64,000 nt of DNA from Antarctobacter heliothermus (GTDB lineage Bacteria > Pseudomonadota > Alphaproteobacteria > Rhodobacterales > Rhodobacteraceae): assembly GCF_002237555.1 (NCBI RefSeq), contig NZ_CP022540.1:1372501-1436500 (forward strand), written 5' to 3'. The notes beneath the pieces are model-generated. The model searched no databases. It was not told the origin of the DNA and saw only the letters and a list, made by a program, of their open reading frames with translations. Shown one piece after another: positions 3,281-32,560 of this stretch. A program made the position numbers and the translations under genes. The stretch's first letter is position 1. Every line of letters begins with the position of its first letter.

Positions 3281-3582
3281 ACGGACAATGAAGCGAACGA
3301 GGAGATCATCCATTGCCCGGCAGGCACATGCGCAGAATGCTGCCGAGAGGGGGCATCCTAGCCGAGCACGAGGCAGGCGCAAAATGCGCGGATCTGTGCC
3401 ACAAGCACGGCATGTCTGAAGGTACTTTCTACAACTGGAAGGCCAAATTCGGCGAAATGACCGTGTCGGAGGCGATGCGGCTGAAGACGCTTGAGGATGA
3501 GAGCGCCAAGCTTAAGAAACTGCTGGCCGAGCAGATGCTCGATCTCGCCTGGATTAAGGAACTGAGTTCAAAAAAGTGGTGA
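3281..3582 (+). pseudogene. IS3-family transposase OrfA, disrupted
   Basis: Encodes the helix-turn-helix subunit of an IS3-type transposase. The recognisable part is EHEAGAKCADLCHKHGMSEG followed by a leucine-zipper-like ALDDESAKLKKLLAEQ-type segment. The N-terminus is damaged: the ATG at 3289 is out of frame with the body, and a 41-bp palindromic insert (3311-3351) separates EEII from GILAEHEAG. The 3' end has AAAAAAG overlapping the stop, the usual IS3 -1 frameshift signal into orfB. Confidence 0.75.
3311..3351 (-). repeat. 40-bp palindromic insert, copy R1 (in IS3 orfA)
   Basis: On the plus strand it begins CATTGCCCGGCA and ends GAGAGGG, the two ends shared by all six copies in the window. 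Removing it joins the codons for EEII and GILAEHEAG of OrfA. Confidence 0.7.
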
Positions 3583-3669
3583 CGCCTGCTGTGAAGCGCG
3601 AGGCGGCCGAGCATCTGAAGGCCCTGATCGAGCGCCACGGAAAGCTGGGGATGATCGTCTCTGACAACG
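3583..3669 (+). pseudogene. IS3-family transposase OrfB, 5' remnant
   Basis: In the -1 frame after the A6G slip the reading is KVVTPAVKREAAEHLK and then abruptly ALIERHGKLGMIVSDN. The second piece normally lies about 200 residues further on, so the first catalytic Asp and most of the integrase core are deleted. The fragment stops at the SDN of the SDNG motif, where IS110 enters. The continuation (GAELTSNAV...) is at 5978. Confidence 0.75.
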
Positions 3670-3929
3670 TCCTATGCGCGGAATAATTGGCTGATTTGGC
3701 ATCAGGTCATTGTCATGCTGAAGCGTTCCAGCACGTTCGAATGTGTGTCAGTTCGGCATTTTGGTCAACAACATGTCTCTCCCATAACAAACACAGAGTA
3801 CGCTTATTGCGGCTCTCACCGTCCTTAAGACGAGATCTTCGGGTCGTTGAGCAGAAGGCCTGAACATTATCTACGAGGTCGAATGCTCGCCTCTACGGCC
3901 CTTACAGAGAAAGGTCCTTCTGCTGTCAA

Positions 3930-4557
3930 TCATCCCTCAAAGAAGGGACGATAGGGTTCGCCGCGGTTTATTATCCCATGCACGGTGCGGGCCATTTTTG
4001 CGGCGATTGCGGTATACGCCTTGCGACGTAAATGCGTGTTTTGACGATCCTTGGCGATGTAACGCTCGAACTTGTCGCGGAAGCTGTTGGTCTTTTGCAT
4101 GATGGCGACCTGACCGGCCATCCAGAGCGTGCGGCGTAATCTGGCATTCCCATATTTTGAGAGCTTGGTTTGGCCACGGAATGTGCCCGACTGGATCGTT
4201 GCGAGGTCCATCCCACAGAACTTCAAAAATTGGCGGTGATGCCGAAAGCGGCGCAGATCGCCTGCTTCTGCAAGGATGGTCAGCGCGTTGATCGGCCCGA
4301 TCCCTGGGATGGATGTTAGCAGTTGATAGTCGTCGTTGGTCTTGAGAAGCTCAACGGCGCGATCCTCAATCTCGTTGCGTTTGGCAATCAGGCCGCGCCC
4401 TTCACCCAAGACCAAACGGAACATCCTTGCAGCGTCGGAGTCCGGCGCAATTGGCAGGCCTACAGAGAACTTGGCGGTCTGATAAATATCTGCAAGCAAA
4501 CGTTCTTTTGACACTTTGCGGCCGACCACGTCCCAAGCATCTGCAATGAAAGCCTCT
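3930..4557 (-). pseudogene. IS110-family transposase, 3' part only
   Basis: Encodes the C-terminal half of the IS110 transposase from EAFIADAW onward, identical in translation to copy 2 at 30785-31417. It includes IPGIGP (helix-hairpin-helix) and the IQSGTFRG segment expected to hold the catalytic Ser. The N-terminal RuvC-like DEDD half is lost at the IS256 junction. Apparent upstream codons in 4558-4625 come from the IS256 end, not from this gene. Confidence 0.85.
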
Positions 4558-5933
4558 GAGATATGCGCGAAAGTTGGTGATGCCCTGAGGGGCGACATAT
4601 CATGGCGGTGTCGAAGCGCCGTCAATTCTCAACCGAGAAAGGGATATGCCACATGCAAGAGAATACCATCACCCAGCTATCTGATCCATCCGGGATTTCG
4701 CCGGACCCGCTGACCGACCTCATCCGGGACGGCGCGCGCAAGCTGATCGAGCAGGCGATTGAGGCGGAACTGTCCACGCTGCTTGGCGCCTTTGCCGATC
4801 ACAAGCTTGAGGATGGTCGCGCAAGACTGGTTCGTCATGGGCACCTGCCCGAGCGTGAGATTTTGACCGGTGTCGGGCCTGTTGCCGTGACGGTGCCGCG
4901 TGTGCGGGACCGCAAGCCGGGCACGGACAAGATCGCGTTCACGCCCAGCATCCTGCCGCGGTATCTGCGCAAGGCAAAGTCGGTCGAAGAGCTGCTGCCC
5001 TGGCTTTACCTGAAGGGCGTGTCCACCGGCGATTTCAGTGAGGCGCTTGCCGCCCTGCTGGGGCCACACGCCAAGGGCCTCTCGGCCACTACGATCACGC
5101 GGCTGAAAGCGGACTGGTGGTCCGAGTACGAGGCCTGGGAAAAGCGTGACCTCGGCACCCGGCGGTTTCTCTACATCTGGGCCGACGGCGTCTATTTCAA
5201 GCCGCGAAGGGCCGAGGAAAAACAATGCGTTTTGGTGATCGTGGGTGCGGATGAATACGGCCGCAAGGAGCTGCTGGCCATGACCGACGGCTTCCGCGAA
5301 AGCACTCAGAGTTGGCGCGAGGTTCTGCTCGATCTCAAACGCCGCGGACTGAAGCAGGATCCCAAGCTCGCCATAGGCGACGGCGCCCTGGGGTTCTGGG
5401 CGGCACTGCGCGAGGTCTTCCCCTCGACACAGGAGCAGCGGTGCTGGCTCCACAAAACCATGAACGTGCTCAACGCGCTGCCGAAATCGGTGCAAGCCAA
5501 GGCCAAGGCGCACCTGCACGACATCTGGCAGGCCGAAACCCGAGCCGCGGCGTCGGCCGCCTTCGACTTCTTCGTCGATGCCTACGGCGTGAAATGGGAC
5601 AAGGCAGTCGCCAAGTTGGTCAAGGATCGGGATGCACTACTGACCTTCTACGACTACCCGGCCGAACACTGGAAACACATCCGGACGTCAAATCCGATCG
5701 AGAGCACGTTCGCCACCGTCAGACACAGGACGAAACGCACCAAGGGCTGCCTCAGCCGCAAGACTGGGCTCGCCATGGCTTTCCGGCTGATGATGTCTGC
5801 TCAGACGAAATGGCGAAAACTCGACGGGCGGAATCGCCTCCCGGAGGTCATCAGCGGGGTTGAGTTCCGCGACGGCGTCCGCCAACTTCAAAACGCCGCC
5901 TGATCACGCGTCACCAACTTCTGCGCATATCTC
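4558..5933 (+). mobile_element. IS256-family element, apparently complete
   Basis: A 1376-bp unit bounded by imperfect 26-bp inverted repeats: the left end starts GAGATATGCGCGAAAGTTGG (4558-4583), and the right end, read inward, starts GAGATATGCGCAGAAGTTGG (5908-5933). Flanks are GAAAGCCTCT and GGCAATCATA with no target duplication, and 700 bp of the IS110 host is missing between them. This suggests an adjacent deletion or recombination between two insertions rather than simple insertion. Confidence 0.88.
4653..5903 (+). CDS. IS256-family (mutator) transposase
   Basis: 416-residue DDE transposase, full length for the family. The catalytic residues are visible: D178 in IWADGVYF, D243 in [10 protein letters not shown] and E350 in [12 protein letters not shown], with the [10 protein letters not shown] segment between the second and third. 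The start at 4653 is chosen because GAGAAAGGGA precedes it at a suitable distance; an in-frame ATG at 4602 lies close to the terminal repeat and adds 17 unlikely residues. It has no frame damage, so this may be the only recently active element in the first nest. Confidence 0.9.
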
Positions 5934-5977
5934 GGCAATCATAGCCTCAACATCAACAACATTCCGAAGGTGTTACG

Positions 5978-6250
5978 GCGCGGAACTGACCAGTAACGCA
6001 GTCTTAACCTTCGCTGCCGCGCACCGAATCGAGTGGCACTACATCGCGCAGGGTAAGCCGATGCAGAACGGCTTCGTGGAGACCTTCAACGGACGGATGC
6101 GGGATGAACTTCTCAACGAGACCATGTTCCGCAGCCTGGCCCACGCGCGGATGGTGATCGCGGCCTAGACTGCCGACGACAATACCGAACGCCCGCACTC
6201 GGCCTTGGACTACCAGACCCCGGCAGCAAGCGCGGACCCTGACCACCGCA
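5978..6250 (+). pseudogene. IS3-family transposase OrfB, 3' remnant
   Basis: Continues the interrupted orf[21 protein letters not shown], then [19 protein letters not shown] containing the catalytic Glu, then ERPHSALDYQTP, the usual C-terminal IS3 block. A TAG at 6166-6168 replaces the Trp expected before the TADDNTERPHS segment. Its first codon GGC completes the SDNG motif begun at 3669. Confidence 0.8.
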
Positions 6251-6284
6251 ATCGCCCGTCTCGGCGCAGCAAAGGGAGTGGATC

Positions 6285-6660
6285 ATATGTTGTGCTATTT
6301 GGCCCGGCTGACCGAGCTGGAACTGGTCGACCGGGAACGGCGCATGGTGGAACGCCGGATCAAGGCGGAAAAGTTCCCGGCTGTCAAAAGCCTCCCCTCC
6401 ATGGTTTGTGCTGCAAACCACTGAAGGGCAACGGACCAGCTTCGACTTCATGGCCATCACGTCCTTGAACACGATGACGGTGCTGGACCTGGCACGCTGC
6501 GAATGGATCGAGCGCAAAGAAAACATGATCGCGCTTGGGCCGTCGGGCACCCGCAAGACTCATGTCGCCCTCGCCCCTTGGCTTCGCTGCCTGTCCGAGG
6601 GGATTGCCCGTCGCCTTCGTGACCGCCGCCGCAGATATGCTTCGAGGCCATAGCGGGCGC
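6285..6660 (+). pseudogene. istB: IS21-family IstB helper ATPase, broken fragment
   Basis: Reads LCYLARLTELELVDRERRMV and RIKAEKFPAVKSL in one frame. After a 40-bp palindromic insert (6395-6434) it continues as SFDFMAITSLNTMTVLDLAR, then ALGPSGTRKTHVAL in another frame. The last motif is the Walker A of IstB with the expected Gly replaced by Arg (GTGKT to GTRKT). Further frame slips follow near 6590. The C-terminal half is absent. The matching istA fragment lies 22 kb away at 28640. Confidence 0.75.
6395..6434 (+). repeat. 40-bp palindromic insert, copy R2 (in istB)
   Basis: Plus strand starts CCCTCCATGGTTTG and ends AAGGGCAACGG; it is the most diverged copy. The inner stem GGTTTG / CAAACC around GTGCTG-like loop bases is intact. 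Removing the 40 bases joins codons for KSL and TSFDF of IstB in frame. Confidence 0.65.
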
Positions 6661-6694
6661 ATGGCACTCCCGCTATGCTTTTCAGGTTTGCGGA

Positions 6695-7126
6695 TCATGC
6701 TGCTTCGGTCAGCCGTTGAAGGATCTCCAGCATGCTTGGCGACAGGTCCGTATGATGGTGCGCCAGTTTCCACGTTCCGTCCTGCTTCTGATAGACGTTG
6801 GTCACACGGTGTTGGATCTTGGCCTCATTGCCGGCGATGATTAACTTTCCGACCTCCACGCCGGTTTCAACGGCCATGTCCGATCCAGCGTTAATCATCT
6901 GATCCAACAGCCGGATGTCTCCTCCGCCAGCAATTTCGGCAACCTTGCTGAAGGAGGCCAAGACGGAATCCGAACCCATGTCCCGCCCGCCGATGGGATG
7001 CTGCGCCGTGGCGCCGCCGCCTTTGATCCACGCGTCCTGCATCGCGGTATCGTCGCCGTTCGCCATGCTGTTGAGGGCATCGTAGAATGCGACCGAGGCG
7101 CGGCGAACATCTTCTAAGTTGATCAT
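6695..7126 (-). CDS. SnoaL/NTF2-like fold protein
   Basis: 143-residue single-domain protein with the pattern of the DUF4440/SnoaL-like cone fold: an N-terminal helix (RRASVAFYDALNSM), a WIKGG loop, and a C-terminal strand block ending WKLAHHHTDLS. This fold is used for small-molecule binding or minor isomerase and hydrolase roles; substrate unknown. The start at 7126 follows AAAGGAA at 8 bases; an ATG 27 bases upstream lacks such a site. It shares its strand with the sulfotransferase gene 87 bp upstream and may be co-transcribed with it. Confidence 0.7.
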   Translation of the reverse strand: MINLEDVRRASVAFYDALNSMANGDDTAMQDAWIKGGGATAQHPIGGRDMGSDSVLASFSKVAEIAGGGDIRLLDQMINAGSDMAVETGVEVGKLIIAGNEAKIQHRVTNVYQKQDGTWKLAHHHTDLSPSMLEILQRLTEAA

Positions 7127-7213
7127 GATTTGGTTCCTTTCAGTTGTTGGCAAGCCGGGAGTATGCCCGGCCCATGCCGAACGCCCCGTAGCCGAAAATT
7201 TCAGTGGGTTGGA

Positions 7214-7849
7214 TCAGGCCGCCGGTTCTTGCGTCCCGGACTTCACCGACGAGAAGAAATCGGCCCGCGCATTGGTTTTGGGGAAAGGCGCATCCGGCAC
7301 GTCAACGCCAAGAAAGCGGCAGAGAGGTTCCCATCCGTCGCGGACACTGAACACCAGGGCCTTGCCCTCCGCCTCCAGGTCCCGCGCGGCTGCTTCGTTG
7401 GCGCGGTAAACCTTCAGGATGCCGTCCCTGTCGGTATGCCCACCAAGGGCCCTGCCGATGATGACGCTCTCAATCATCTGAAACCAGGGAACCGCGTTTT
7501 GTGGCCAGGCCTCCTTGTCGAGGATCAGCGGCAGGATGGTCTGGGAAAAGCTGCCATACCAATCCTCGGCTTCCCGATGTGAAAGAATGACTTTGGCGTC
7601 CGGTGTTGCCGCAAGCACGTCTTGCCAGTAGGCCGAAACCGGGAAATCCACGGCCGATCGAAAGCCCGAGAAGATCGCGTCAAAGTCGGGACGCCCCTCT
7701 GCCACCTTGGACCAGGCTTCGATCTGCCCGGAGTCGCTGACGACCTCGGACATGTGATGGCATGGGCCGAAGCCCAAATGCTCCAACGCCGCCTTCAGTG
7801 AGTAAGTCCCGGTTCGACCGAACCCCGCGCCAATGATTTCGAGTGTCAT
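7214..7849 (-). CDS. Sulfotransferase family protein
   Basis: 211 residues with the P-loop-like 5'-phosphosulfate binding motif GFGRTGTYSLKAAL at residues 8-21 and a second binding segment ILSHREAEDWYGSF near 90-105. This matches the short bacterial sulfotransferase group that uses PAPS; the acceptor is unknown. It diverges from the LysR gene at 7963, with palindromic boxes between them, so LysR control is likely. It is followed in the same direction by the NTF2-like gene. Confidence 0.75.
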   Translation of the reverse strand: MTLEIIGAGFGRTGTYSLKAALEHLGFGPCHHMSEVVSDSGQIEAWSKVAEGRPDFDAIFSGFRSAVDFPVSAYWQDVLAATPDAKVILSHREAEDWYGSFSQTILPLILDKEAWPQNAVPWFQMIESVIIGRALGGHTDRDGILKVYRANEAAARDLEAEGKALVFSVRDGWEPLCRFLGVDVPDAPFPKTNARADFFSSVKSGTQEPAA

Positions 7850-7870
7850 TGCATATCACCTCCTCTATGA

Positions 7871-7917
7871 ATAAGATCGATCTACCTTGCTTGATCTTCG
7901 CCTAGTGAAATTAAGAT
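7871..7917. promoter_or_regulatory. Divergent promoter with LysR-type boxes
   Basis: The 113-bp gap between the sulfotransferase and LysR genes contains AGATCGATCT (7874-7883, perfect dyad) and ATCTT-N14-AAGAT (7894-7917). The two share the ATCTT half-site, as expected for a LysR protein binding a recognition and an activation site. Confidence 0.5.
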
Positions 7918-7962
7918 GAGCCATTCGCCCCACAAAAGTCGAACGAAACGATTTCATAGATC

Positions 7963-8931
7963 ATGAGCGAAATTGATCTGCACCGCGTCGACCTGAATTT
8001 GCTGGTTGTTTTCGAGTCCCTGATGGAGACCCGAAGCGTTACGGTGACAGCCGACAAGATCGGGCGCACACAGTCGGCGGTCAGCCACTCGCTTGCTCGG
8101 TTGAGGGAGCAACTCGACGATCCTGTGCTGGTCCGGGTCGGCGGCAAGATGCACCCCAGCCCGTTCGCCGAGGCCATCATCGAAGATGTCCGCCCCATTC
8201 TGCGCAGCATCCGCCGGGTGATCGCGCCGCGCAACCTGTTTGACCCGGGCCAAAGCGATCGCGTGTTTCGCATCGCCATGCCGACGCTGACCAAAGTCAT
8301 TGCAGAGGTGTCGGCACGGGTCGAAGCCGAAGCGCCAAAGGTAAAGATCGAGTGGCTGCCAGCGCACCACGACGTCTATCCGGCGCTGAGCGAAGGGTTG
8401 ATCGACCTCGCCCATCTGGGCGGACAGCCGCGATTGCCGGATGGGCTTGATCAGCAAATCATGGAGCCATTTTCCTGGGTGACTTTCGCGCGTCAGGGGC
8501 ACCCTGCGGTCTCGGGCTGGGGGATCGACGCCTGGCGCAAATACCCGCATGTCATGGTCAATGTCACGAGGTCGCAGCAAAATCCCTTTCCGGCCACGCC
8601 CTCCACCGATGTTGGGGGGCGGCGGGTCAGCGCGATGATTGGGGACTCGGCCGGTGTAGCCTCACTCCTTGCGAATTCTGATTTTCTGGCCACATTCCCG
8701 GCGGTCCTGCTCGCTTGGGATATGGAGGCGCACGGCCTGATTGCGATGAAGCCACCTGTCGACCTCGGACAGGTTCTTGTTCGTTTTTTCTGGAGTTCGC
8801 GCCTAGCCAACGACGCCGGTGGTATCTGGATCAGATCGATCGTGATCGAGGCCTACCGACGCCTGCAAGCTGAAGCAGAGGCGAAACTGGCCGAGCCACG
8901 ACTTCTCCAGCCGTCTAGGCGACCGGCTTGA
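7963..8931 (+). CDS. LysR-family transcriptional regulator
   Basis: 322 residues. The N-terminal winged helix-turn-helix is clear: DLNLLVVFESLMETRSVTVT, then TQSAVSHSLARLREQL and DPVLVRVGGKM. The remainder fits the periplasmic-binding-like effector domain. It is divergent from the sulfotransferase gene, the usual arrangement for a LysR regulator and its target. Effector unknown. The following 260 bp (8932-9190) hold no supported gene. Confidence 0.88.
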   Translation: MSEIDLHRVDLNLLVVFESLMETRSVTVTADKIGRTQSAVSHSLARLREQLDDPVLVRVGGKMHPSPFAEAIIEDVRPILRSIRRVIAPRNLFDPGQSDRVFRIAMPTLTKVIAEVSARVEAEAPKVKIEWLPAHHDVYPALSEGLIDLAHLGGQPRLPDGLDQQIMEPFSWVTFARQGHPAVSGWGIDAWRKYPHVMVNVTRSQQNPFPATPSTDVGGRRVSAMIGDSAGVASLLANSDFLATFPAVLLAWDMEAHGLIAMKPPVDLGQVLVRFFWSSRLANDAGGIWIRSIVIEAYRRLQAEAEAKLAEPRLLQPSRRPA

Positions 8932-9189
8932 TTGGAGCATCGCCTGCTCGTGCGCCGAGCAACCGCGCCCGAGCCACTTCGTTGCGCGTGTCGACTGTTG
9001 AAATCGAACACAGCGCATGGTCGGCTTGGTTTCCGCAGTCTGAACTGGATTGAACGACCGCGTAGGGAAAAGTCGATGCATCGCCGCGATTTCGCCGCCG
9101 CAATTGGGCGGATCATTTTCGGTTTTCAGCACTTGTCGTCGCTGCGATAAAGTAGGTCAAGAAAGGCCCGCACTGCCGTCACCGGGCTA

Positions 9190-9514
9190 TCCAAAATGCT
9201 GCATGATCAACGAATGGCCGGTCTGGTGAAGCTGCGCCGCACAGACAAACGTTAGTCCATTCGCAAGGGAGAACTGGAGGCCCAACTCGTAGTTGAGCCG
9301 GAAAGGTCGCCGGTTTTACTGACCCAGGGCTGGCGGACCAGTATTGTGCCGAAGTTGCACAGTTGAGTGCTGCACTCGACAATCCTGTCAGAAGGGCCGA
9401 GGTGACGTCGATCGTCCGCAGCCTTTTGTCCGAAATCAGGCTGATTCCGGGCTCGGAATCGTTGATGCTCGAACTGGTAGGGGAACTGGAGAATCTCTTG
9501 TCGCTCAACGAGTC
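9190..9514 (+). pseudogene. Site-specific serine recombinase, C-terminal remnant
   Basis: Translation in pieces gives LHDQRMAGLVKLRRTDKR, then a stop, then LSAALDNPVRRAEVTSIVRS and GSESLMLELVGELENLL. The last block is the typical C-terminal end of large serine recombinases found in integrated elements (AAEIIRGLIDRI...IELVGELA pattern). The catalytic N-terminus is absent and there are in-frame stops. It abuts the tRNA-fMet gene, suggesting a decayed element that once used this locus. Confidence 0.6.
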
Positions 9515-9515
9515 C

Positions 9516-9555
9516 AAAACGACAACGCCCCGAGGCGGCAAGCCTGCGGGGCGTT
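9516..9555 (-). terminator. Terminator of tRNA-fMet
   Basis: On the minus strand AACGCCCCG and CGGGGCGTT pair around an AGGCTTGCCGCCT loop that can itself pair, followed by GTCGTTTT. It starts 10 nt after the CCA end of the tRNA. Confidence 0.8.
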
Positions 9556-9564
9556 CGACACTGT

Positions 9565-9641
<77 letters not shown>

Positions 9642-10260
9642 ACAGTGAGGCTTAGTTATATCGCCAATTGGCGGACCGCAAGGGGAAGTCAGTGCTGAAT
9701 GTAAAAGTTTTCCAACTAACTGTTAGCACAAACAGCACATGCATGGTTCCCTGAAGCCCGCATCGTTTGAAACTGGAATTTTGGGCTAGAGCTTCCTGCT
9801 CAGGGGAGGGCTTCGCCATTCCGGTGGGCTATCGCCGTTTGACGCCGTGACTTGGGTCTCGTGGCCATGACTTCAGCGCAGCGCGACGTTTAACAACTTT
9901 CCCGCACAGATAAGTTTCAATTTCTGGAAACGTGGCGCTGCTACGATCGGGTCCGGAAAGAGTGTTCGTCTTGGTGAAATGTGGATTTGTTCGGTGGCTC
10001 GCGGAAATTGGCCCGACAGAACGCCACGGCGCCCGCCTGTGCCGCTGCGGGTTTGCTTGTTTTAAGCGGCCTTTGTTGGGGCGTAGCGGGCGCCTAACCC
10101 GTTTTATACTATAAGGGAAATTGAACATATTTTGCTTCACCCAGTGCCGTGCAATGCCCCGGAGCGTACTTTGAAGAGGTTTTTGACGATAAGGTGATTT
10201 TTGCAGAAGAGGGCAGTTTAGCCTTGTAATCGCTTTATTTACTTGGATATACGCGTCGGT
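9642..10260. other. Gene-free stretch between two divergently placed tRNA genes
   Basis: About 620 bp with no coding pattern I can support. A minus-strand frame at 9829-10140 is open but basic, low in complexity and has no recognisable domain. Promoters of the two tRNA genes should lie at its ends. Confidence 0.5.
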
Positions 10261-10350
10261 GGAGACGTGGCCGAGTGGTCGAAGGCGCTCCCCTGCTAAG
10301 GGAGTAGGCCCGGAAGGGTCTCGAGGGTTCGAATCCCTTCGTCTCCGCCA
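10261..10350 (+). tRNA. tRNA-Ser (GCT)
   Basis: 90-nt class II tRNA. The acceptor stem GGAGACG pairs with CGTCTCC, the anticodon loop is CTGCTAA (GCT, reading AGC/AGT), a long variable arm TAGGCCCGGAAGGGTCTCGA follows, and CCA is encoded. Confidence 0.96.
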
Positions 10351-10920: not shown

Positions 10921-10993
10921 GATGATGTAACCGCCCCCCGACGGCATCTGTGTGCCAAGGTGGGTCTGTGAGGATCCACAAAGGGGAGCGGTC

Positions 10994-12022
10994 ATGTCGG
11001 AGATTATCACGGTCGGAGTCGATCTGGCAAAGAATGTGTTTCAGGTGCATGGCGCTGATGCGTCGGGTCGTGCAGTTCTGCGCAAGAAGCTGAGGAGAAT
11101 GCAGGTGTTGGAGTTCTTCAGCCAGCTGCCGCCTTGCATTGTCGCGATGGAAGCATGCGGCAGCGCCCACTTTTGGGGGCGCGAGATCGGCAAATTGGGG
11201 CATGACATTCGGCTGATCCCACCTGCTTACGTCAAGCCCTTCGTCAAGCGCCAGAAAAACGATGCGGCAGATGCCGAGGCTATTTGTGAAGCGGCAGTTC
11301 GCCCAACCATGCGTTTTGTGCCGGTGAAGAGCGAAGAGACCCAAGGCGCGGCGATGATCTTCCGCGTACGGGAATTGCTGATCCGGCAGCGGACACAGGC
11401 GATCAATGCCCTACGTGGCCACCTGACTGAATTCGGGCAGATCGTGCCGCAGGGGGCGGCCAACGCGTCAAAACTCATCGCCATCGTTGAGAACCCGGAC
11501 AGCAGCATACCCACCGATGCCATCGCCACTTTGAAGGTGCTGGTTCTGGCACTCGCCCACCTCGAGGCAGAGATTGGGAAGTTGGATGCCGAGATCGCCC
11601 GCCGGGCAAAAGAGAATGACGTGGCCCGACGGCTGATGACTATCCCGGGCATTGGTCCACTTATCGCCACGGCCATCGCGGTGTTGGCCCCGCCGCCCGA
11701 GACTTTCCGTAAGGCCCGAGACTTTGCGGCATGGCTTGGTCTAGTGCCACGACAGCATTCGACCGGTGGCAAGCAACGGCTCGGGGCCACGACCCGAATG
11801 GGCGAACGATCTTTGCGACGCTTGCTCATCATCGGGGCTAACAGCGTCATCATAAAGCGGCATGTCCACGCGGCGGCCAAGCCCGGCACCTGGCTTGGCC
11901 GCATGCTGACGCACAAGCCACCAATGTTGGTGCGGGTGGCGCTGGCGAACAAAATGGCGCGCATCGTTTGGGCCCTGATGGCCCGAGGTGGCGTCTACAA
12001 AGCTCCGGCCGTGGCGGTGTAA
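10994..12022 (+). CDS. IS1111-group transposase (DEDD, IS110 family)
   Basis: 342 residues. The N-terminal RuvC-like domain shows D10 in VGVDLAKNVFQVHG, E53 in AMEACGSAHFWG, and D90 and D93 in KRQKNDAADAEA. The C-terminal domain has IPGIGPLIATAIAV and the catalytic-serine segment PRQHSTGGKQRLG. The start at 10994 follows AAAGGGGAG at 6 bases; an ATG at 10952 would add 14 residues lacking similarity to the family. No frame damage is seen. Confidence 0.92.
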   Translation: MSEIITVGVDLAKNVFQVHGADASGRAVLRKKLRRMQVLEFFSQLPPCIVAMEACGSAHFWGREIGKLGHDIRLIPPAYVKPFVKRQKNDAADAEAICEAAVRPTMRFVPVKSEETQGAAMIFRVRELLIRQRTQAINALRGHLTEFGQIVPQGAANASKLIAIVENPDSSIPTDAIATLKVLVLALAHLEAEIGKLDAEIARRAKENDVARRLMTIPGIGPLIATAIAVLAPPPETFRKARDFAAWLGLVPRQHSTGGKQRLGATTRMGERSLRRLLIIGANSVIIKRHVHAAAKPGTWLGRMLTHKPPMLVRVALANKMARIVWALMARGGVYKAPAVAV

Positions 12023-12090
12023 GCCGTCAGGGGCGCGAGGACGTCGGAGCGGAAGAGGGCAAGGAGCAGTTTGGCGCAATCGTCGTGAGA

Positions 12091-12230: not shown

Positions 12231-12408
12231 CGACAAAATCAGCTCTGAAAATATCTCTTGCGCAAGGGGCGGTTATACATGTTGCACAAAGCCCGTGAAT
12301 CCAGTGTGGTAGCTGGCATGCATGAGCAGACCGATACCACCGACCTACAAGACCAGGAAGTGGCCAGCCTATAACGAAGCGCTCAAGCGCCGCGGCTCGC
12401 TGACGGTC

Positions 12409-12449
12409 CATTGACCGGCAGGGCAGTGCAGAGCAATGTCCCGAGAGGT
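12409..12449 (-). repeat. 40-bp palindromic insert, copy R3 (in IS5 transposase)
   Basis: Plus strand begins CATTGACCGGCAGGG and ends GTCCCGAGAGG. It lies between the codons for LTV and WFD, and is in the opposite orientation to R4 in the same gene. Confidence 0.75.
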
Positions 12450-12722
12450 TGGTTCGACGCCGAGATGAGCTGGGATGCCGTGCCGACAGGCAGGCGTGGC
12501 CGCCAGCAGACCTACAGTGACACCGCCATCCAGACGTGCCTGACGACAAAGGTTCTGTTCGGCATGGCGCTCCGGCAGACGACCGGTTTTGTCGAGAGCC
12601 TGCTGAGGCTGGTTGGCCTCGACTGGACGGTGCCTGACTTCAGCACGCTGTCCCGCTGTCAGAAGACCCTGGCCGTCAACATCCCCTACCGTGGGTCAAA
12701 GGACCCGCTCCACCTGTTGATC

Positions 12723-12763
12723 CCCTCTCGTGACATTGCTGCGCAATGCACTGCCGGGCAGTG
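12723..12763 (+). repeat. 41-bp palindromic insert, copy R4 (in IS5 transposase)
   Basis: Plus strand begins CCCTCTCGTGACATTGC and ends CACTGCCGGGCAGTG. The inner CATTGC/GCAATG stem and outer CACTGC/GCAGTG stem are both perfect. It lies between the codons for LLI and DSTGIK. Confidence 0.8.
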
Positions 12764-13436
12764 GACAGCACCGGAATCAAGGTCGAGGGCAAAGGCGAGT
12801 GGCGCGCTCGCAAGCCTGGTGGCCCCAAACGGCGGGTCTGGCGCAAGATCCACCTTGGGGTCGACGAGGAAACGCTGGAGGTCCGGGCTGTCGGGATCAC
12901 CGGGAGCCACATCAGTGATGCGCCGGTCTTGCCCGATCTGCTCCGCCAGATCCCGATGGGCGAAAAGATCGGCTCGGTGGTCGCCGACGGTGCCTGCGAC
13001 ACCCGCAAGTGCCACGATGCCATCGCGGATCGCGGCGCCCACGCAGTCATCCCGCCCCGCAAGAACGCTAAGCCGCGGAAGACCGCTGGTGCCGTGGCTC
13101 GAAACGAGGCCTTGCGCGCTGCGAAAGACCTCGGCCGAGCCCTGTGGCGACGATGGAGCGGAAACCACCGCCGGAGCCGCGTCGAGACGAAGATGCATTG
13201 TGTAAAGCTGCTGGGTCAGCGCCTCATGGCACGGGACTTCGACCATCAGGTCGCCGAACTCCAGGTCCGCATCGCCGTCATGAATGGCCACACAGCGCTC
13301 GGCATACCCGTCACAGAGCCTGTGGAATGAGTCCGTCCGGGTAAAGGGGAACCTCGGTTTTCAGACGATTTGGGCAACAGGGTCTCAATGAATAGACGCA
13401 ATTTCTATAGTTCTATCGCACTGCACTGCAGCCCAC

Positions 13437-14548: not shown

Positions 14549-14610
14549 GGCGACACCGGCTGGCAGGTGTGAGAAGGACATTGGACAGTAAGGACAAACG
14601 ATCGGCCAGA

Positions 14611-14751: not shown

Positions 14752-14811
14752 CATGTTCGAACCGTGCAAAGGAAAGCTTGCATCGCCCGAGGTATCCACA
14801 CATGAGGAGTG

Positions 14812-19731: not shown

Positions 19732-19754
19732 ACATGACAACAAGGAAAGACAAG

Positions 19755-25309: not shown

Positions 25310-26217
25310 CTGACCGGCGGGACTTCATCGGACATGGGGGGCAGCCCCCCATGCGCCACTGGCCGAACGGGGCCGGCTTGGCCGTATCGTTTGTCGTCAA
25401 CGTCGAGGAAGGTGCAGAACTGTCAATCGCCGACGGGGATGAGTGCAACGAGTTCATCTATGAGGCGGTCGAGCCGGTCGAGGGTGAGATCGACCTGTGC
25501 ATGGAAAGCCATTTTGAATACGGCCCGCGCGCGGGCTGGCCGCGCATCCGGCAGGCGCTGCAGGATCGTCGTGTCCCGGCGACCCTGAACGCCTGCGGAC
25601 GGGCAATCGCTCGCCTTCCCTGGCTTGCGCAGGAGGCCGTCGCGGACGGCCATGAGATCGCCGCTCATGGGTATCGGTGGGAGCGTCACGTTCACATGGA
25701 CGCCGCGCAAGAGCGCAAGGCGATTGCCGATTGCAGCGACGCGATTGCGGCGGCCTGTGGTGAGGCTCCGGTCGGCTGGCACACCCGCTCTGCCACCTCG
25801 CCGCGCACGCGCGATCTGCTACAGGAAAACGGCGGCTTTCTTTACGACAGCAATGCTTACAACGACGATATCCCCTTTACTGTCCCCGGTCCGAATGGCC
25901 CGCATGTGGTGCTGCCCTATGCCTTTGACACCAACGACATGCGGTTCTTCAATCGGGGCGGCTTTGTCTTTGCCGAGGACTTCTCACGCTATTGCATCGC
26001 CGCCTTCGACCGGCTGCTTGACGAAAGCGCTCACGCCCCACGGATGCTGTCCATCGGGCTGCACCTGCGCATTATCGGGCGCCCGGCACGGATCAGCGGA
26101 CTGGAACAGGTGTTGGACCATGTTCTGAACCACCCCGATGTCTGGATCGCGCGCCGTGACCAGATTGCACATGCCTGGCGGGCAGGGCTGGATCTTCCGG
26201 TCTGGAACACACGATGA
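25306..26217 (+). CDS. Polysaccharide deacetylase-fold hydrolase, allantoinase (PuuE)-like
   Basis: 303 residues with the NodB fold in the PuuE subgroup: LAVSFVVNVEEGAE near the N-terminus, EIAAHGYRWERH (metal His), GWHTRSATSPRTRDLLQENG and FLYDSNAYNDDIPF. PuuE-type enzymes open the hydantoin ring of allantoin without being related to dihydroorotase-type allantoinase. Here no uricase or other purine gene is adjacent, so another cyclic ureide or imide is the likely substrate. Overlaps the BtpA gene by four bases. Confidence 0.8.
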   Translation: MTDRRDFIGHGGQPPMRHWPNGAGLAVSFVVNVEEGAELSIADGDECNEFIYEAVEPVEGEIDLCMESHFEYGPRAGWPRIRQALQDRRVPATLNACGRAIARLPWLAQEAVADGHEIAAHGYRWERHVHMDAAQERKAIADCSDAIAAACGEAPVGWHTRSATSPRTRDLLQENGGFLYDSNAYNDDIPFTVPGPNGPHVVLPYAFDTNDMRFFNRGGFVFAEDFSRYCIAAFDRLLDESAHAPRMLSIGLHLRIIGRPARISGLEQVLDHVLNHPDVWIARRDQIAHAWRAGLDLPVWNTR

Positions 26218-26873
26218 AAATCACGCTGGTTAATCCCAACAGTTCGCGCGCGGTGACAGAGGCGATGGTTGCTATTGCCCGCTCGGTCGCGCCCGGCGTC
26301 ACTGTCCAGGGCGTGACCATCCCGGACGCCCCGCCGACCATTTTGAACCCCGATGCGTTGGACGCGGCCGCCATCCGCGTCGCGGCGCTGGCACCGTCTC
26401 TTGCAGGCGCGGTGATCGTGGCTGGGTTCGGCGATCCGGGGCTGATGGAGCTGCGCGCCGCGGGGCTATCCCATGCCACCGGCCTTGCAGAGGCGTCGAT
26501 CGCTGAGGCCGCCGCCCTCGCGCCTCGCTTTGCCGTGGTGACGACGACGCCGCAACTGGTCGGGCGGATCGACCTTGCCGCACAGCGGGCCAGTCACGAT
26601 GGGTATGCAGGCACCTGGGTCACTCCCGGCGATCCCCAGCAGCTTATGTCCGATGCGTCGGCGCTGACGGATGCCTTGCTTGCGGCCTGTCAGCGCGCCT
26701 GTGCCGAGGCCGAACGGGACGGCGCGCTTGGAGCCATCATCATTGGCGGCGGGCCGCTGGCTGTCGCAGCGCGCACCATTTCGGCGGACGCTCCAGTGCC
26801 GTTGATCGAACCCGTTCCCGCAGCGGTGCGCCGCCTGCTTGCAACCGCTCATACAGATGGAATTCCCGGATGA
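26214..26873 (+). CDS. Asp/Glu/hydantoin racemase-fold protein lacking both catalytic Cys
   Basis: 219 residues. ITLVNPNSSRAVTEAM at the N-terminus is the family opening, and AGFGDPGLMELRA and AIIIGGGPLA are the two active-site segments. In active hydantoin and allantoin racemases these read with Cys (CFGDPG and LGCAG types); here they are Gly71 and Gly179. The fold is therefore present but two-base racemisation by thiols is not possible as in known members. It may act as an isomerase, decarboxylase or lyase of another kind, or be a binding protein. Overlaps neighbours by four bases on both sides. Confidence 0.8.
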   Translation: MKITLVNPNSSRAVTEAMVAIARSVAPGVTVQGVTIPDAPPTILNPDALDAAAIRVAALAPSLAGAVIVAGFGDPGLMELRAAGLSHATGLAEASIAEAAALAPRFAVVTTTPQLVGRIDLAAQRASHDGYAGTWVTPGDPQQLMSDASALTDALLAACQRACAEAERDGALGAIIIGGGPLAVAARTISADAPVPLIEPVPAAVRRLLATAHTDGIPG

Positions 26874-28360
26874 CCGAAACGCTCGTAACAGCCGACCGCA
26901 TCCTTGTCGGCTTTGGACCCGACCACACCCCCGACCTGCGAGAGGATGCCGCGCTGCTGATCCGTGACGGCAAGGTTGCCGCCATCGGCCCGGCAGAGAC
27001 GTTGCGCCGCGATCACCCCGATGCCGAACGGATTGGGGGTTCGGGACAGGTTGTCATCCCCGGACTGATCAACGCCCACCATCATGTGGGTCTGACACCA
27101 TTCCAACTGGGCGTGCCTGATCTGCCGCTGGAACTGTGGATCGCGGCGCGGATCGGCCTGCGTGAAGTCGCGCCCCGACTGGACACACTTTTTTCAGCGT
27201 TTGAGATGATCGCCTCTGGCGTGACGACGGTTCAGCACCTGCACGCGCGTGCGCCGGGGACACCAGAGGGCGTGCTGGGGCGGGCGGATGAGATCCTTTC
27301 GGCCTACGCCGAGATTGGGATGCGGGTGTCCTATTCCTTTGCCCTGCGTGATCAAAACCGGCTGGTCTATGCGGCGGATCAGGACTTTGTGGCGACGTTG
27401 CCAGAACCGCTGCGTGCGCCCACCGCGGAATACCTTGGAGCCTTTGCCTTGCCCCTGTCGGACCAGGTCGCCATCTTTGACGCCCTACGCAGCCGGTATG
27501 CCGGGGATCCGATGACTGCGATCCAGATCGGCCCGTCGAACCTGCACTGGCTGTCGGATGCGGCGCTGGAAAGCGCGGCGGAGATGTCCGGGCGAACCGG
27601 CGCGCCTATGCACATTCACCTGCTCGAGACTCCGTATCAGGTCGAATACGCCCGCCAACGCACCGGCGGATCGGCCGTTGCCCATCTGGATCGTTTCGGA
27701 CTGCTGGGCCCGCAAACCACGCTGGGCCATGCCGTCTGGATGACCGCCGATGACATTGCGCTTTGTGCTGAGCGCGGCGTGTGTCTATGCCACAACTGTT
27801 CGTCCAATCTGCGGCTGAAAAGCGGAACTGCCGACCTCAACGGCTTTCTTGCCTCTGGCGTTCCGGTCGCCATGGGCATTGATGAGGCGGGCATAAACGA
27901 CGACCGCGACATGATGCAGGAAATGCGGCTGGTGCAGACTCTGCACCGACCGTCCGGGCACAGCTCGCCGACCCCGTCGGCCGCGCAGGTGCTGCAGATG
28001 GCGACCGAATATGGCGCCGCGACGACGCCCTTTGCCGACCGGGTCGGACGACTGGAAGTCGGTTGCGAGGCCGATCTGGTGTTGCTGGATTGGGCCCGGC
28101 TGACCTATCCTTGGCAAGACCCCGCGCGGCCTTTTGCTGAGGTTCTGGTGCGCCGCGCCCGGCCCGAGTTTGTGCTGCAGGTGCTAATTGGCGGTCGCAG
28201 CGTTCTCAAGGACGGTCGGTTCGTGAATGTGGATCGCGACCAGATACTTGATGAGATCGCGGCCAGTTTGGGCCGTTCGCCACAAATCTGCGAACAATCT
28301 CGGGTCCAGCTTGCAGCGGACCTCTTTCCGCATGTCGATAAATTCTACGCGAACTGGTAG
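26870..28360 (+). CDS. Amidohydrolase (TRZ/ATZ family), second of two
   Basis: 496 residues. The metal motif is at 70-72 (NAHHHVGL), further His in HIHLLETPYQ and LGHAVWMTADD, and the Asp in MGIDEAGINDD. Similar in plan to atrazine chlorohydrolase-type and SAH deaminase-type enzymes that act on exocyclic groups of N-heterocycles. It differs from the first amidohydrolase of the operon and so likely performs a separate step. It is the last gene of the run; IS21 debris begins about 280 bp later, and I see no terminator in 28361-28639. Confidence 0.85.
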   Translation: MTETLVTADRILVGFGPDHTPDLREDAALLIRDGKVAAIGPAETLRRDHPDAERIGGSGQVVIPGLINAHHHVGLTPFQLGVPDLPLELWIAARIGLREVAPRLDTLFSAFEMIASGVTTVQHLHARAPGTPEGVLGRADEILSAYAEIGMRVSYSFALRDQNRLVYAADQDFVATLPEPLRAPTAEYLGAFALPLSDQVAIFDALRSRYAGDPMTAIQIGPSNLHWLSDAALESAAEMSGRTGAPMHIHLLETPYQVEYARQRTGGSAVAHLDRFGLLGPQTTLGHAVWMTADDIALCAERGVCLCHNCSSNLRLKSGTADLNGFLASGVPVAMGIDEAGINDDRDMMQEMRLVQTLHRPSGHSSPTPSAAQVLQMATEYGAATTPFADRVGRLEVGCEADLVLLDWARLTYPWQDPARPFAEVLVRRARPEFVLQVLIGGRSVLKDGRFVNVDRDQILDEIAASLGRSPQICEQSRVQLAADLFPHVDKFYANW

Positions 28361-28639
28361 GTGGTGAGACGGAAATGCGCGGAGCCAATGCCACATGTGC
28401 TCCGAGAGATCTTTTCGAGTTTTAGCGCAGCGAGGTGGTCCCGAATGTTCGACCAGTTTGCCAACGGGCTTCAGCATGGGTTTCATGTCTAGCGGCGGTT
28501 GCCACTTTTTGGCTCCCGGTATCAAAGGCCTCCGCTAGCGTCAGCAACACGTGGGATGCGTACGGGCGTCTCTCGTTGCAATAGGTGATCCGCGCGTCGA
28601 TCCCGCGTCTTGCCTCGGAACCGGCGGCAGGCCAGGTAA

Positions 28640-29043
28640 GCCAACGGCAAGGTCAACTCGCAGTTGCGCGTGAGCTACGACACCAACGATTACCCGGTCC
28701 CGGTCGCCTATGGGCATCAGGATGTCTGGACCCGCGCCTGCATCGACCGGGTGATGATAGGCTGCGACGGCAATGTCATTGCGCGGCATGCGCGCTGCTA
28801 CGACCGCGAGGACATGGTCTTCGATCCGGTCCACTACCTTCCGCTTATCGAGCGCAAGATCAATGCCCTGGATCAAGCCGCGCCCTTGACGGAGTAGGAT
28901 TTGCCTAAAGAGCTCCAAACCCTGCGCCGTCTCATGGAAGCGCGCATGCTGAAAATGGGGCGGCGCGAGTATGTTCAGGTGCTACGCCTGCTCGAGACCT
29001 TCGGCATGGAGGACCTGCACGCTGCCGCAAAGCAGGGATAGTA
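28640..29043 (+). pseudogene. istA: IS21-family transposase IstA, C-terminal remnant
   Basis: Reads QLRVSYDTNDYPVPVAYGHQ, RHARCYDREDMVFDPVHYLP and IERKINALDQAAPL, then a TAG at 28895-28897, then LRRLMEARMLKMGRREYVQV and LRLLETFGMEDLHAA before another stop. This is the beta-barrel and tail of IstA; the DDE core is missing. The istB fragment at 6285 may be from the same kind of element. Confidence 0.8.
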
Positions 29044-29091
29044 TCCCGAGGACTGGAATAACTTTGCTCTTCGGCCTTGGCTCGGCCGCAG

Positions 29092-29640
29092 TTACAGGGC
29101 GGCGATTTTCGCCGGGTCCATTGGTGCAGTGTCACAAATGGCGGTGACGGTTTCCAGCGTCATGTTGCACCGCGTGATCGCCCATTCGTCATTTTGCTCC
29201 AGCATCAGGGCGCCGACCAGGCGCGTCACCGCGGCTTCGTCCGGGAAGATCCCGACGACATTGGTCCGGCGCTTGATCTTCTTGTTCAGACGCTCAAGCG
29301 GGTTCGTCGAGTGTATCCTGGCCCAGTGCTCCTTGGGGAAGCTCTTGTAGGGCAGGACTTCGTCCTCGGCCCTGCGCATCAGCTCCGCGAGCTTGGAGTG
29401 GCGCGGTCCGAAGGCGTCGATCAGCTTGGCCCAGTGCTCTTTCGACGTTGTGAGCGTGTCCTGATCGAAAGCGGTTCGAAGCGCCGCAGTGACGATCGGG
29501 CGGTCCATCTTGCCGACGCAGGCCAGCGCGTTGCGCATGAAATGTGCGCGGCAGCGCTGGACGGTGACGCCGAGCACCTTGGCGGCCGCAGCCTTCAGGC
29601 CCTTGTGGTAGTTTGCGATGATCAGGATCGTCCTTGATGG
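29092..29640 (-). pseudogene. IS256-family transposase, C-terminal remnant
   Basis: Encodes HKGLKAAAAKVLGVTVQRCR, AHFMRNALACVGKMDRPIVT and HSTNPLERLNKKIKRRTNVV, which carries the catalytic Glu (NPLERL). The second Asp motif, normally SDDHKGLK, has become ANYHKGLK, and everything upstream is missing. It differs from the complete IS256 at 4653 in sequence, so it is a separate lineage. Confidence 0.8.
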
Positions 29641-29693
29641 CCTGCGTGGCGAGGATAGTACCATTCGTGACGTGCCCCCCGCTGGTCCCTCGC

Positions 29694-30049
29694 TCATGAC
29701 GAGAGTCTGCGGGTCTGATTTTGGTGGTCGTCGGTTTCGGGTTTGGCAAGCGCGGCGGGCGCGGAGCCCTCAAATAGCTCAAGCACCTGCCGCGCTTGCT
29801 TTGGCGTTTTGTTCCCCAGCGAAGAGTGCGGCCTGACGTTGTTGTAATCGTAGCGCCCCAGCGCCAGTTTGCGGCGGGCATCGTCCAGGGTATCGAACAA
29901 CTCTTCATTGAGGAGCTCGTCCCGCAGGCTGCCGTTGAATGGCTCGATAAAGGCATTCTGCTACGGTTTTCCGGGGTCGATATAGTGCCAATCCACGCCG
30001 TTCCTGTCGGCCCATTTCAGGCTTGCCCGGCTGGTGAACTCCGTGCCGT
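29694..30049 (-). pseudogene. IS3-family transposase OrfB copy 2, 3' part
   Basis: Continues after IS110 as GTEFTSRASLKWADRNGVDW, HYIDPGKP, then TAG where Gln is expected, then QNAFIEPFNGSLRDELLNEE with the catalytic Glu, and DYNNVRPHSSLGNKTPKQAR. Its first codon completes the SDNG motif left at 31679. Confidence 0.85.
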
Positions 30050-30184
30050 AACACCTTCGGAATGTTGTTGATGTTGAGGCTATGATTGCCTGCGCAGCCC
30101 CCAAATAGCGCAGCAGGTGATCATAGCCGGGTCTCAGGTCCCTACAGTGGTTTTGCACAAACCACGCCGCAAGGGAGACCGACT

Positions 30185-31417
30185 ATGACCGATGCCACTA
30201 TTGCACAAACCGAGCCTGTTTTGGTTGCGATTGATATCGCAAAGGCCCGCCATGAAGTCTTGATCGCTGTTCCGGGCCGAAAGCGCCGCCGCCGTTTGAC
30301 CGTTCTCAACCAGCTCGACGAATTCAATCGATTGATCTCTACACTCTCAGAGTATGATCGTCCTGTCCGCGCGGCTTTTGAGGCTACAGGCAATTACCAT
30401 CGCGCTCTCGCTTACCGGCTTGGGGTGGCCGGTTTCGATGTGAAGCTGGTGTCTTCGGTCGCATTGGCGCGCACCCGTGAGGCTTTGAACAACAGTTGGG
30501 ACAAGAACGATCCGAAAGACGCGCAAGTCATCCTGCATATGATGCTGATCGGGAACGAGCAGTTTTACCACGACCCAATGCTGAGCGGTACGAATGATCT
30601 TCAGGAGTTGTCCAAGACGCACGACATAGTCTCGCGCTCAAAGACGGAACTTTGGCATCGGGTGCTGACCCACTACCTGCCGCTGTATTGGCCCGAGGCT
30701 GACCGCTTTCATCGCAGCTCACGCAGCGATTGGTTCTTTGCCTTTCTCGAACGTTATCCTTCACCGCATTTCATCTCTGCCATGGACCAAGAGGCTTTCA
30801 TTGCAGATGCTTGGGACGTGGTCGGCCGCAAAGTGTCAAAAGAACGTTTGCTTGCAGATATTTATCAGACCGCCAAGTTCTCTGTAGGCCTGCCAATTGC
30901 GCCGGACTCCGACGCTGCAAGGATGTTCCGTTTGGTCTTGGGTGAAGGGCGCGGCCTGATTGCCAAACGCAACGAGATTGAGGATCGCGCCGTTGAGCTT
31001 CTCAAGACCAACGACGACTATCAACTGCTAACATCCATCCCAGGGATCGGGCCGATCAACGCGCTGACCATCCTTGCAGAAGCAGGCGATCTGCGCCGCT
31101 TTCGGCATCACCGCCAATTTTTGAAGTTCTGTGGGATGGACCTCGCAACGATCCAGTCGGGCACATTCCGTGGCCAAACCAAGCTCTCAAAATATGGGAA
31201 TGCCAGATTACGCCGCACGCTCTGGATGGCCGGTCAGGTCGCCATCATGCAAAAGACCAACAGCTTCCGCGACAAGTTCGAGCGTTACATCGCCAAGGAT
31301 CGTCAAAACACGCATTTACGTCGCAAGGCGTATACCGCAATCGCCGCAAAAATGGCCCGCACCGTGCATGGGATAATAAACCGCGGCGAACCCTATCGTC
31401 CCTTCTTTGAGGGATGA
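30185..31417 (+). CDS. IS110-family transposase (DEDD recombinase)
   Basis: 410 residues. The RuvC-like acidic residues are D17 (VAIDIAKARHEV), E66 (AAFEATGNYH), D109 and D112 (WDKNDPKDAQ). The C-terminal Transposase_20 domain has SIPGIGPINALTILAEAGDL and the likely catalytic serine S325 in ATIQSGTFRGQTKLS. Start at 30185 follows AAGGGAGA. IS110 transposases are guided by an RNA made from the element's own non-coding ends. It is the intact parent sequence of the broken gene at 3930. Confidence 0.93.
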   Translation: MTDATIAQTEPVLVAIDIAKARHEVLIAVPGRKRRRRLTVLNQLDEFNRLISTLSEYDRPVRAAFEATGNYHRALAYRLGVAGFDVKLVSSVALARTREALNNSWDKNDPKDAQVILHMMLIGNEQFYHDPMLSGTNDLQELSKTHDIVSRSKTELWHRVLTHYLPLYWPEADRFHRSSRSDWFFAFLERYPSPHFISAMDQEAFIADAWDVVGRKVSKERLLADIYQTAKFSVGLPIAPDSDAARMFRLVLGEGRGLIAKRNEIEDRAVELLKTNDDYQLLTSIPGIGPINALTILAEAGDLRRFRHHRQFLKFCGMDLATIQSGTFRGQTKLSKYGNARLRRTLWMAGQVAIMQKTNSFRDKFERYIAKDRQNTHLRRKAYTAIAAKMARTVHGIINRGEPYRPFFEG

Positions 31418-31678
31418 TTGACAGCAGAAGGACCTTTCTCTGTAAGGGCCGTAGAGGCGAGCATTCGACCTCGTAGATAATGTTCAGGCCTTCTGCTCAA
31501 CGACCCGAAGATCTCGTCTTAAGGACGGTGAGAGCCGCAATAAGCGTACTCTGTGTTTGTTATGGGAGAGACATGTTGTTGACCAAAATGCCGAACTGAC
31601 ACACATTCGAACGTGCTGGAACGCTTCAGCATGACAATGACCTGATGCCAAATCAGCCAATTATTCCGCGCATAGGAC
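31418..31678 (+). other. IS110 right non-coding end, candidate guide RNA region
   Basis: 260 bp without coding pattern, identical by eye to 3670-3929 of copy 1 on the other strand. It contains several short inverted repeats (for example CAGCAGAAGG near 31423 against CCTTCTGCT near 31490) and a TGACAA run near 31633 that could pair with the TTGTCA half of the target. The 135-bp left end is the alternative location. Confidence 0.35.
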
Positions 31679-32270
31679 GTTGTCACTGACAATGCAAGCG
31701 GGTTTTCCGTAGATCCGGGCGAGTGCGTCCAGCTCTCGGGTCACGCGCTCGCCTGAAATGCTGGTGTCGGCGGCCAGGCACAGGTTTTCCCGGCAGCAGT
31801 CATCGTTCACGGCCAGGATGCGGAACTTCCGCGATGCGCCGAAGTTGTCCGCCAGGAAATCCAGGGACCAGCGCTGGTTCGGCCGTGTGGCTTCGGGCAT
31901 CGGCGTGCGCGAGCCCCGGGCGCAACGGCGGCACCGCCGCCGTTCCACCGCAAGGCCTTCTTCGCGGTAGAGGCGGTAGAGTTTCTTGTGGGTCATGTTC
32001 ATGCCTTTGCGCTCAAGCAGCACGCCGATCCTCCGGTAGCCGAACCGGCGGCGTTTGCCAGCGATCTCCTTCATCTCCTGGCGGATCTCGGGATGGTCAG
32101 GCGGGCGTTCGCGCCGGACCGTCTTTGGATCGACACCCCCTCTCATGGTTTTCAAGCAAAACCACTGCCGGGCAGTGGACCAGCCGGCAGGCCCTGCGCT
32201 GCGAGACATCATGATCCCGCATTGCATGGAGCGCTGCCTCTCGCCGCTCTTTCGGTGCCGTCAGCTTTTT
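31679..32270 (-). pseudogene. IS3-family transposase OrfB copy 2, 5' part
   Basis: In the -1 frame after GGGAAAAAGC near the orfA stop it reads KKLTAPKERREAALHAMRDH and DVSQRRACRLV. Then 40-bp insert R5 shifts the frame, then GVDPKTVRRERPPDHPEIRQ, GYRRIGVLLERKGMNMTHKK, NQRWSLDFLADNF (first catalytic Asp), and RIYGKPACIVSDN (second), where IS110 enters. Apart from R5 and IS110 the frame is open. Confidence 0.85.
32138..32177 (+). repeat. 40-bp palindromic insert, copy R5 (in IS3 orfB)
   Basis: Plus strand starts CCCTCTCATGGTTTTC and ends CCACTGCCGGGCAGTG. The inner stem GGTTTT/AAAACC and the outer CACTGC/GCAGTG are perfect. Removal joins RRACRLV to GVDPKTV. Confidence 0.8.
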
Positions 32271-32560
32271 CCCAGCAAGTCTTTCAAAACCACGTTGTCG
32301 AGCATCGTATCAGCCAGCAGCCGCTTCAGCTTGGCGTTTTCGTCCTCCAACGCCTTCAGTCGGCGGCTTCCGACACCTCCCTCTCACACATGCAGCGCAT
32401 ATGTTGCCGGGCAATGCATGCCGCCATACTTGGACTTCAGCTTGTAAAAGGTCGCCGGGCTCAGGACGTGCCGACGGCACACCTCAGCTGTCGACATCCC
32501 GGCTTCCTGCTCTTCAATCATCCCGATGATTTGCGCATCAGTGAAACGGCTCTTACGCAT
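32261..32560 (-). pseudogene. IS3-family transposase OrfA copy 2, interrupted by insert
   Basis: Starts MRKSRFTDAQIIGMIEEQEA, helix-turn-helix STAEVCRRHVLSPATFYKLK, then KYGGM. The 37-bp insert R6 introduces a TGA, after which EVSEAARLKALEDENAKLKR and LLADTMLDNVVLKDLLGKS follow. Without the insert it is a normal 87-residue OrfA. Confidence 0.85.
32380..32416 (+). repeat. 37-bp palindromic insert, copy R6 (in IS3 orfA)
   Basis: Plus strand runs from CCTCTCACACATGC to TGCCGGGCAATG. The inner stem pairs ACACATGC with GCATATGT with one mismatch. It is slightly shorter than the other copies, or the flanking codons also changed. Confidence 0.7.

Follow-up and report, generated by a model that had tools for sequence, protein, structure and literature searches.

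Short palindromic DNA inserts within insertion sequences of Antarctobacter heliothermus and other Rhodobacteraceae

Why should six related palindromes of about 40 bp, found in one stretch of the genome of Antarctobacter heliothermus, all lie inside transposase genes? The stretch, referred to here as the window, comprises 64,000 nucleotides of contig NZ_CP022540.1, and an earlier note on its sequence had suggested that the six inserts could be copies of a miniature mobile hairpin. The analysis described here points to a family of short (36-45 bp), non-autonomous palindromes of mobile DNA, found mainly in the Rhodobacteraceae/Roseobacter group, that ride on insertion sequences (ISs) and break them. 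We give this reading a probability of roughly 0.6.

Six inserts and their empty sites

The six window inserts were aligned to uninterrupted IS homologues from annotated plasmids, namely a Thioclava IS5 (L487), a Phaeobacter IS3 (L488), a Sulfitobacter istB (L489), and a Sulfitobacter IS3 (L490); L and G numbers are our handles for loci and genomes. Each insert forms a block present only in the query and absent from the corresponding homologue, to which the aligned bases outside the inserts are 81.6-91.0% identical. No target duplication is seen at the six sites in the alignment to these four empty homologues. The earlier note had placed the inserts correctly, apart from a one-base shift in a single copy, and its statements on length (37-41 bp) and on the missing target duplication hold as well.

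Two of the inserts, both of 41 bp, are hosted by an IS5-type transposase gene (12300-13320, plus strand; 90.4% identity to L487, which has DDE_Tnp_1 domains). One is in the gene-sense orientation (12409-12449, plus strand) and the other is in the opposite orientation (12723-12763, minus strand) at the site LLI/DSTGIK, where the slash marks the insertion point. An IS3-type host (31700-32590, minus strand; 91.0% identity to L488) also contains two, a 40-bp copy in orfB (32138-32177, minus strand) and a 37-bp copy in orfA (32380-32416, minus strand). A fragment of IS3 orfA (3235-3600, plus strand; 89.2% identity to L490) carries a 41-bp copy (3311-3351, plus strand). All five are matched by the covariance model described below, the last at C1:1375811-1375851. 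The sixth insert lies on the minus strand within an IS21 istB fragment (6250-6640, plus strand; 81.6% identity to L489), where the 40-bp block aligns at 6394-6433 instead of the 6395-6434 first noted; its edge is ambiguous by one base, and the feature is recorded as 6394-6434. This copy, already described as the weaker one, is the weakest of the six, with a degenerate CAYTG end and a score below the model threshold.

Further differences from the homologues are small and include a 6-bp gap in the IS5, 3 bp in the istB fragment, a 1-bp deletion after 32362 close to the insert at 32380-32416, and the loss of 13 bp at 3301 beside the insert in the IS3 orfA fragment. Excision of both inserts from the IS5 at L001 and at L003, the latter of which spans the window copy, leaves 311 amino acids (aa), and L487 encodes 310 aa.

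Exact empty sites exist for all six window copies and for many others. Three loci (L044, L001, and L023) share an identical 41-mer at the LLI/DSTGIK site of an IS5, with the flanks of L001 and L023 being only 74.5 and 74.9% identical to L044; the same 41-mer is also found in other ISs. Because identical 41-mers occur in IS copies that are only about 75% alike, the element is regarded as mobile. The three-locus identity may reflect either separate arrival or a very short conversion. Gain has occurred repeatedly, both at the same site and at different sites. The many unrelated insertion sites, the exact empty sites, and the identical copies in diverged hosts all bear out the miniature mobile hairpin first suggested.

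Anatomy of the hairpin

The unit can be written as CAYTG-CCC-GGCA-(variable stem)-GAGA-GGG, in which the CAYTG end is followed by an outer helix of CCC and GGG, a conserved GGCA/GAGA internal loop, and a covarying stem. In 171 unique elements the insert measures 36-45 nt, with one base past GAGAGG counted. Each stem pair is present in 44 to 49 of the 49 distinct 41-mers, and in a set of 30 distinct 41-mers 96.7% of 360 cells are paired, with two-sided changes in 67 and one-sided changes in 4. The covariation score is 0.542, compared with 0.145 in shuffles and no more than 0.101 in slid versions, and none of 500 shuffles reached the covariation measures. The base following GAGAGG pairs with position 6 (C-G in 44, A-T in 2, and C-A in 3 of 49). 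G-T pairs are few in the stems, and since they are scarce a DNA hairpin fits better than an RNA one, which suggests that the hairpin acts as DNA.

No Rfam 15 family reaches its gathering score on the element, and two sub-threshold Rfam hits lie elsewhere in the loci. Three copies near IS1182 copies (G000:C1:2008759, 4025293, and 4093766) match model positions 7-40 only, as if the CAYTGC end had been lost.

Distribution of the family

The search pattern CAYTGCCCGGCAN{10,30}GAGAGG has 23 matches in this genome and its reversed form, used as a control, has 0. A covariance model built from 30 distinct 41-mers recovers 40 copies in this genome at E≤0.01, the istB copy not being among them. Pattern matches are present in 15 of 61 genomes (own included), with 0 in the 24 from other families, and in 105 of 394 sampled genomes of the own bacterial family (own included), with 0 for the control. 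Of 190 genomes sampled across the class and searched with the model under strict filters that may lose weak matches, five had matches, two of them (G501 and G512) from other families. The element also occurs in 109 plasmid records, and the ten genera named in that tally are what we take to be Roseobacter-group. A pattern search of 50,697 phage records gave 0 matches. In 84,980 species genomes a stricter pattern found at least 120 loci; among the matches listed, 78 of 80 have titles that read Rhodobacteraceae or Rhodobacterales and two Alphaproteobacteria only. In viral contigs a loose pattern found at least 120 loci, with about 13 judged real by a filter among the matches listed, some of these being in ISs and some beside phage or other genes. 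The family is bound mainly to one clade, the Rhodobacteraceae/Roseobacter group. Full-text literature searches found no description of this hairpin family.

Host genes, target sites, and reading frame

Sorted by the surrounding protein, the 171 unique elements form 31 groups, of which the three largest hold 122; each of these three is a chain in which several IS types may be linked. Pfam domains on the host representatives are rve, DDE_Tnp_1, DUF4096, Mu_transpos_C_2, DUF772, DDE_3, Y2_Tnp, IS66, and Mutator, and the labels IS110, IS481, IS30, and istB were assigned by reading. Of the 40 copies found here, nearly all were likewise read as lying in ISs. Among 184 finder matches (a few of them weak) at 120 loci from named genomes, 140 have IS homology, and the other 44 are in part other ISs by eye and in part intergenic. 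The family is strongly concentrated in IS genes, where the insert breaks the frame. At one site shared by L063, L070, L108, and L137, the elements lie seemingly past the end of an IS110-type gene and so in non-coding IS DNA.

Insertion takes place near YCRTC/G, in either orientation and without target duplication. The triplet 5' of the insert is ATC in 44 and GTC in 37 of 152 sites, with C or T two bases further out, and the insert is followed by G in 71% and by A in 17%. This motif is a tendency, as about half of the sites carry RTC. Relative to the host gene, 51 of the 171 elements are opposite, 43 are in the same orientation, 50 are ambiguous, and 27 are unsupported. LLI/DSTGIK or a close variant recurs as a site in seven rows, all opposite to the gene and involving five different hairpins; insertion at catalytic Asp codons (LLI/DSTG and VMI/DATYL) is perhaps a by-product of RTC/GA. 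Mutual information between element and target couples the terminal base strongly with position 6 and otherwise gives weaker signals, with z of about 3-4. Insert lengths fall into all three modulo-3 classes (30, 64, and 77 of 171), which rules out an in-frame peptide and overturns the likeness to Rickettsia palindromic elements that the earlier note had drawn.

The effect on the host IS is seen in G018, a two-contig genome in which six full-length IS3 copies, gap-free over 1385 bp, bear the same four inserts, two per orientation. Without these inserts the IS3 is otherwise intact, with an orfA of 100 aa and an orfB of 308 aa that contains the rve domain. The next full-length match in this genome is about 32% identical, short fragments reach 94%, and a 3-bp duplication is visible by eye at three of the six copies. 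With 14 nonsynonymous and 3 synonymous changes among the six copies, selection for function is not seen, although drift is common in recent IS copies and makes this a weak test. IS1182 in A. heliothermus is likewise present as six insert-bearing copies, and the copy read has another break. That insert-bearing ISs are multicopy indicates that they have multiplied, most simply with help in trans.

Copies outside insertion sequences

The claim that the inserts occur only inside transposase genes stands for the six window copies and fails for the family, as strict confinement is ruled out by copies in intergenic DNA, in a RelE-type gene, and in an intergenic repeat. In this genome one copy adjoins an EamA gene (C1:1785552) and another is just past an rve-like fragment (C2:278412). 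Across the family, non-IS copies adjoin M3 peptidase, BrnT, TfoX/NDK, periplasmic-binding, AMP-ligase, beta-lactamase-fold, and EamA genes. The element beside or in the RelE-type gene occupies one site in prophage-like DNA from three sources (L042, L370, and L307).

Of the 7 long copies (44 nt to GAGAGG), 5 are outside ISs, three of these being one repeat in one genome, compared with 5 of 164 shorter copies, a split that rests on our own locus list. At least 10 long copies occupy an ATC/G-like site in an intergenic repeat that has two hairpins besides. The repeat also occurs empty (L437:7610-7681 and L459:2146-2217), and in the loci scanned no Rfam family matches it at gathering score. This structured repeat of Rhodobacteraceae is filled at L383, L385, L393, L432, L469, L472, L031, and L058. 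At L437 and L459 a second element lies to the right of the first, in opposite orientation, within the same repeat. In genome G406 (L055, L101, and L102), a repeat of roughly 250 bp that holds the element is present in several places.

Possible mechanisms

On this reading the element would move as a DNA hairpin, probably single-stranded, and a trans-acting enzyme would open the target 3' of RTC. Insertion would disable the transposase, and the disabled IS copies could still be moved in trans, allowing the hairpin to multiply and to cross species as an IS rider, with insertions in single-copy DNA being mostly lost. In effect, the element behaves as a non-autonomous hairpin transposon that resides chiefly in other transposons.

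Several points weigh against this proposal. An IS that bears four inserts and is otherwise undamaged is not easily explained by hitch-hiking alone, what looks like independent gain could come from short gene conversion, and no insertion was observed as it occurred. A longer, autonomous relative with the same ends was not recognised in the loci examined. Nor was a mobilising enzyme found among Y1_Tnp, RVT_1, and Y2_Tnp in 25 element-rich and 25 element-free genomes: Y1_Tnp is present in 6 versus 2 of these and absent from this genome (Fisher p = 0.25), RVT_1 in 10 versus 7 (p = 0.55), and Y2_Tnp in 9 versus 3 (p = 0.10). A resident Y1, RVT_1, or Y2 is rejected as the required engine; the helper enzyme may have been lost, belong to another family, or be carried elsewhere.

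Alternatively, machinery of the host or of the element may insert hairpins preferentially into transposon genes and thereby disarm them, which we consider unlikely. Such direction agrees with the crowding of elements into the genes of about ten IS families and with the several inserts that one IS bears without another lesion. The target motif has a density of 20.6 per kb in genes versus 17.1 in gaps and, being no denser in genes on this count, does not explain the bias toward IS genes. However, riding on ISs can also give the bias, no machinery has been identified, and copies are present in intergenic DNA, the RelE-type gene, and the intergenic repeat. Also unlikely is a dedicated system that writes hairpins, recognising transposon genes and disarming them by inserting a short hairpin; the idea of a relic of a mechanism marking transposase genes meets the same copies outside IS genes, which argue against a strict mark.

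A hairpin moved in the manner of a REP (repetitive extragenic palindrome) or of IS200/IS605, by a Y1 HUH transposase now lost or located elsewhere, is improbable. Its hairpin form, the missing target duplication, the one-sided target motif, and the terminal base paired within the element are all in keeping with it, but this genome and G018 are among the 19 of 25 element-rich genomes that lack PF01797, and there is no guide-target covariation.

Very improbable is an intron-like or bypass element, which would be excised from RNA or skipped during translation and would leave the IS active. In its favour, exact ends restore the frame (frames are confident on both sides in 42 elements and stay on one strand in 33, of which 26 fit removal and 7 do not), the open reading frames (ORFs) are intact after removal, and insert-bearing ISs are multicopy. 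Against it, both orientations occur even within one gene, junctions at codon boundaries (84 of 141) are as expected from the motif, which falls on such boundaries in 378 of 600 and 452 of 653 cases in ordinary genes, and the G018 substitutions and the second break in IS1182 also speak against it. Translational bypass elements have matching take-off and landing codons; bypassing is rejected here, as RTC before the insert does not match GGG at its end and the inserts occur in both orientations.

Comparison with known elements

Rickettsia and Wolbachia palindromic elements are small mobile palindromes in ordinary genes; those of Rickettsia lie in protein genes, where they keep the frame and add a peptide. 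The present family likewise consists of small mobile palindromes inside genes, but at 36-45 bp it breaks the frame and is mostly in IS genes. Bacterial MITEs (miniature inverted-repeat transposable elements) have target duplications and IS-type terminal repeats. This family shares their non-autonomous, palindromic, and multicopy character, but is far shorter, without IS terminal repeats or, at the six window sites, target duplication. Group II introns home into ISs and use them as havens without target duplication. Both features recur here, in an element of only about 40 bp that lacks intron features and inserts in both orientations. Elements of the IS200/IS605 type have hairpin ends, no target duplication, and a fixed target 5' of the element; here no duplication is seen and the target is degenerate, as the ATC and GTC counts illustrate.

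According to PMC3733652, the CGTC REPs of alphaproteobacteria have a CGTC tag, a stem of 8-9 bp starting with A and T pairs, a loop of 4-5 nt, and a CCA tail. They resemble this family in being short palindromes with CRTC at one side and no known transposase (PMC3733652). In contrast, CRTC belongs to the empty target here, there is no CCA tail, the stem and loop follow another plan, the end is GAGAGGG, and the copies are inside IS genes. GTAG REPs and REPINs (REP doublets forming hairpins) with their REP-associated tyrosine transposase (RAYT) are similar in being non-autonomous hairpins spread in trans (PMC3733652). This family differs in having no GTAG tag and in the absence of the Y1 gene from most rich genomes. 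These feature tests place it outside the Rickettsia palindromic elements, the CGTC REPs, the RAYT-borne REPs, and the MITEs.

A mobile DNA this small, living mainly on other mobile DNA as a rider and breaker of ISs across about ten families, would need an enzyme yet to be named, and the precise empty sites make its movement, its target choice, and the missing enzyme testable. If true, a dedicated hairpin-writing system would mean that one group of marine and related bacteria controls its transposons by writing DNA. For annotation, IS pseudogenes in this bacterial group may be ORFs cut only by these hairpins.

Two window genes that adjoin the interrupted ISs are free of hairpins, a Mutator/IS256-like gene at 4620-5905 and an IS110-like gene at 10990-12022, both labelled by reading.

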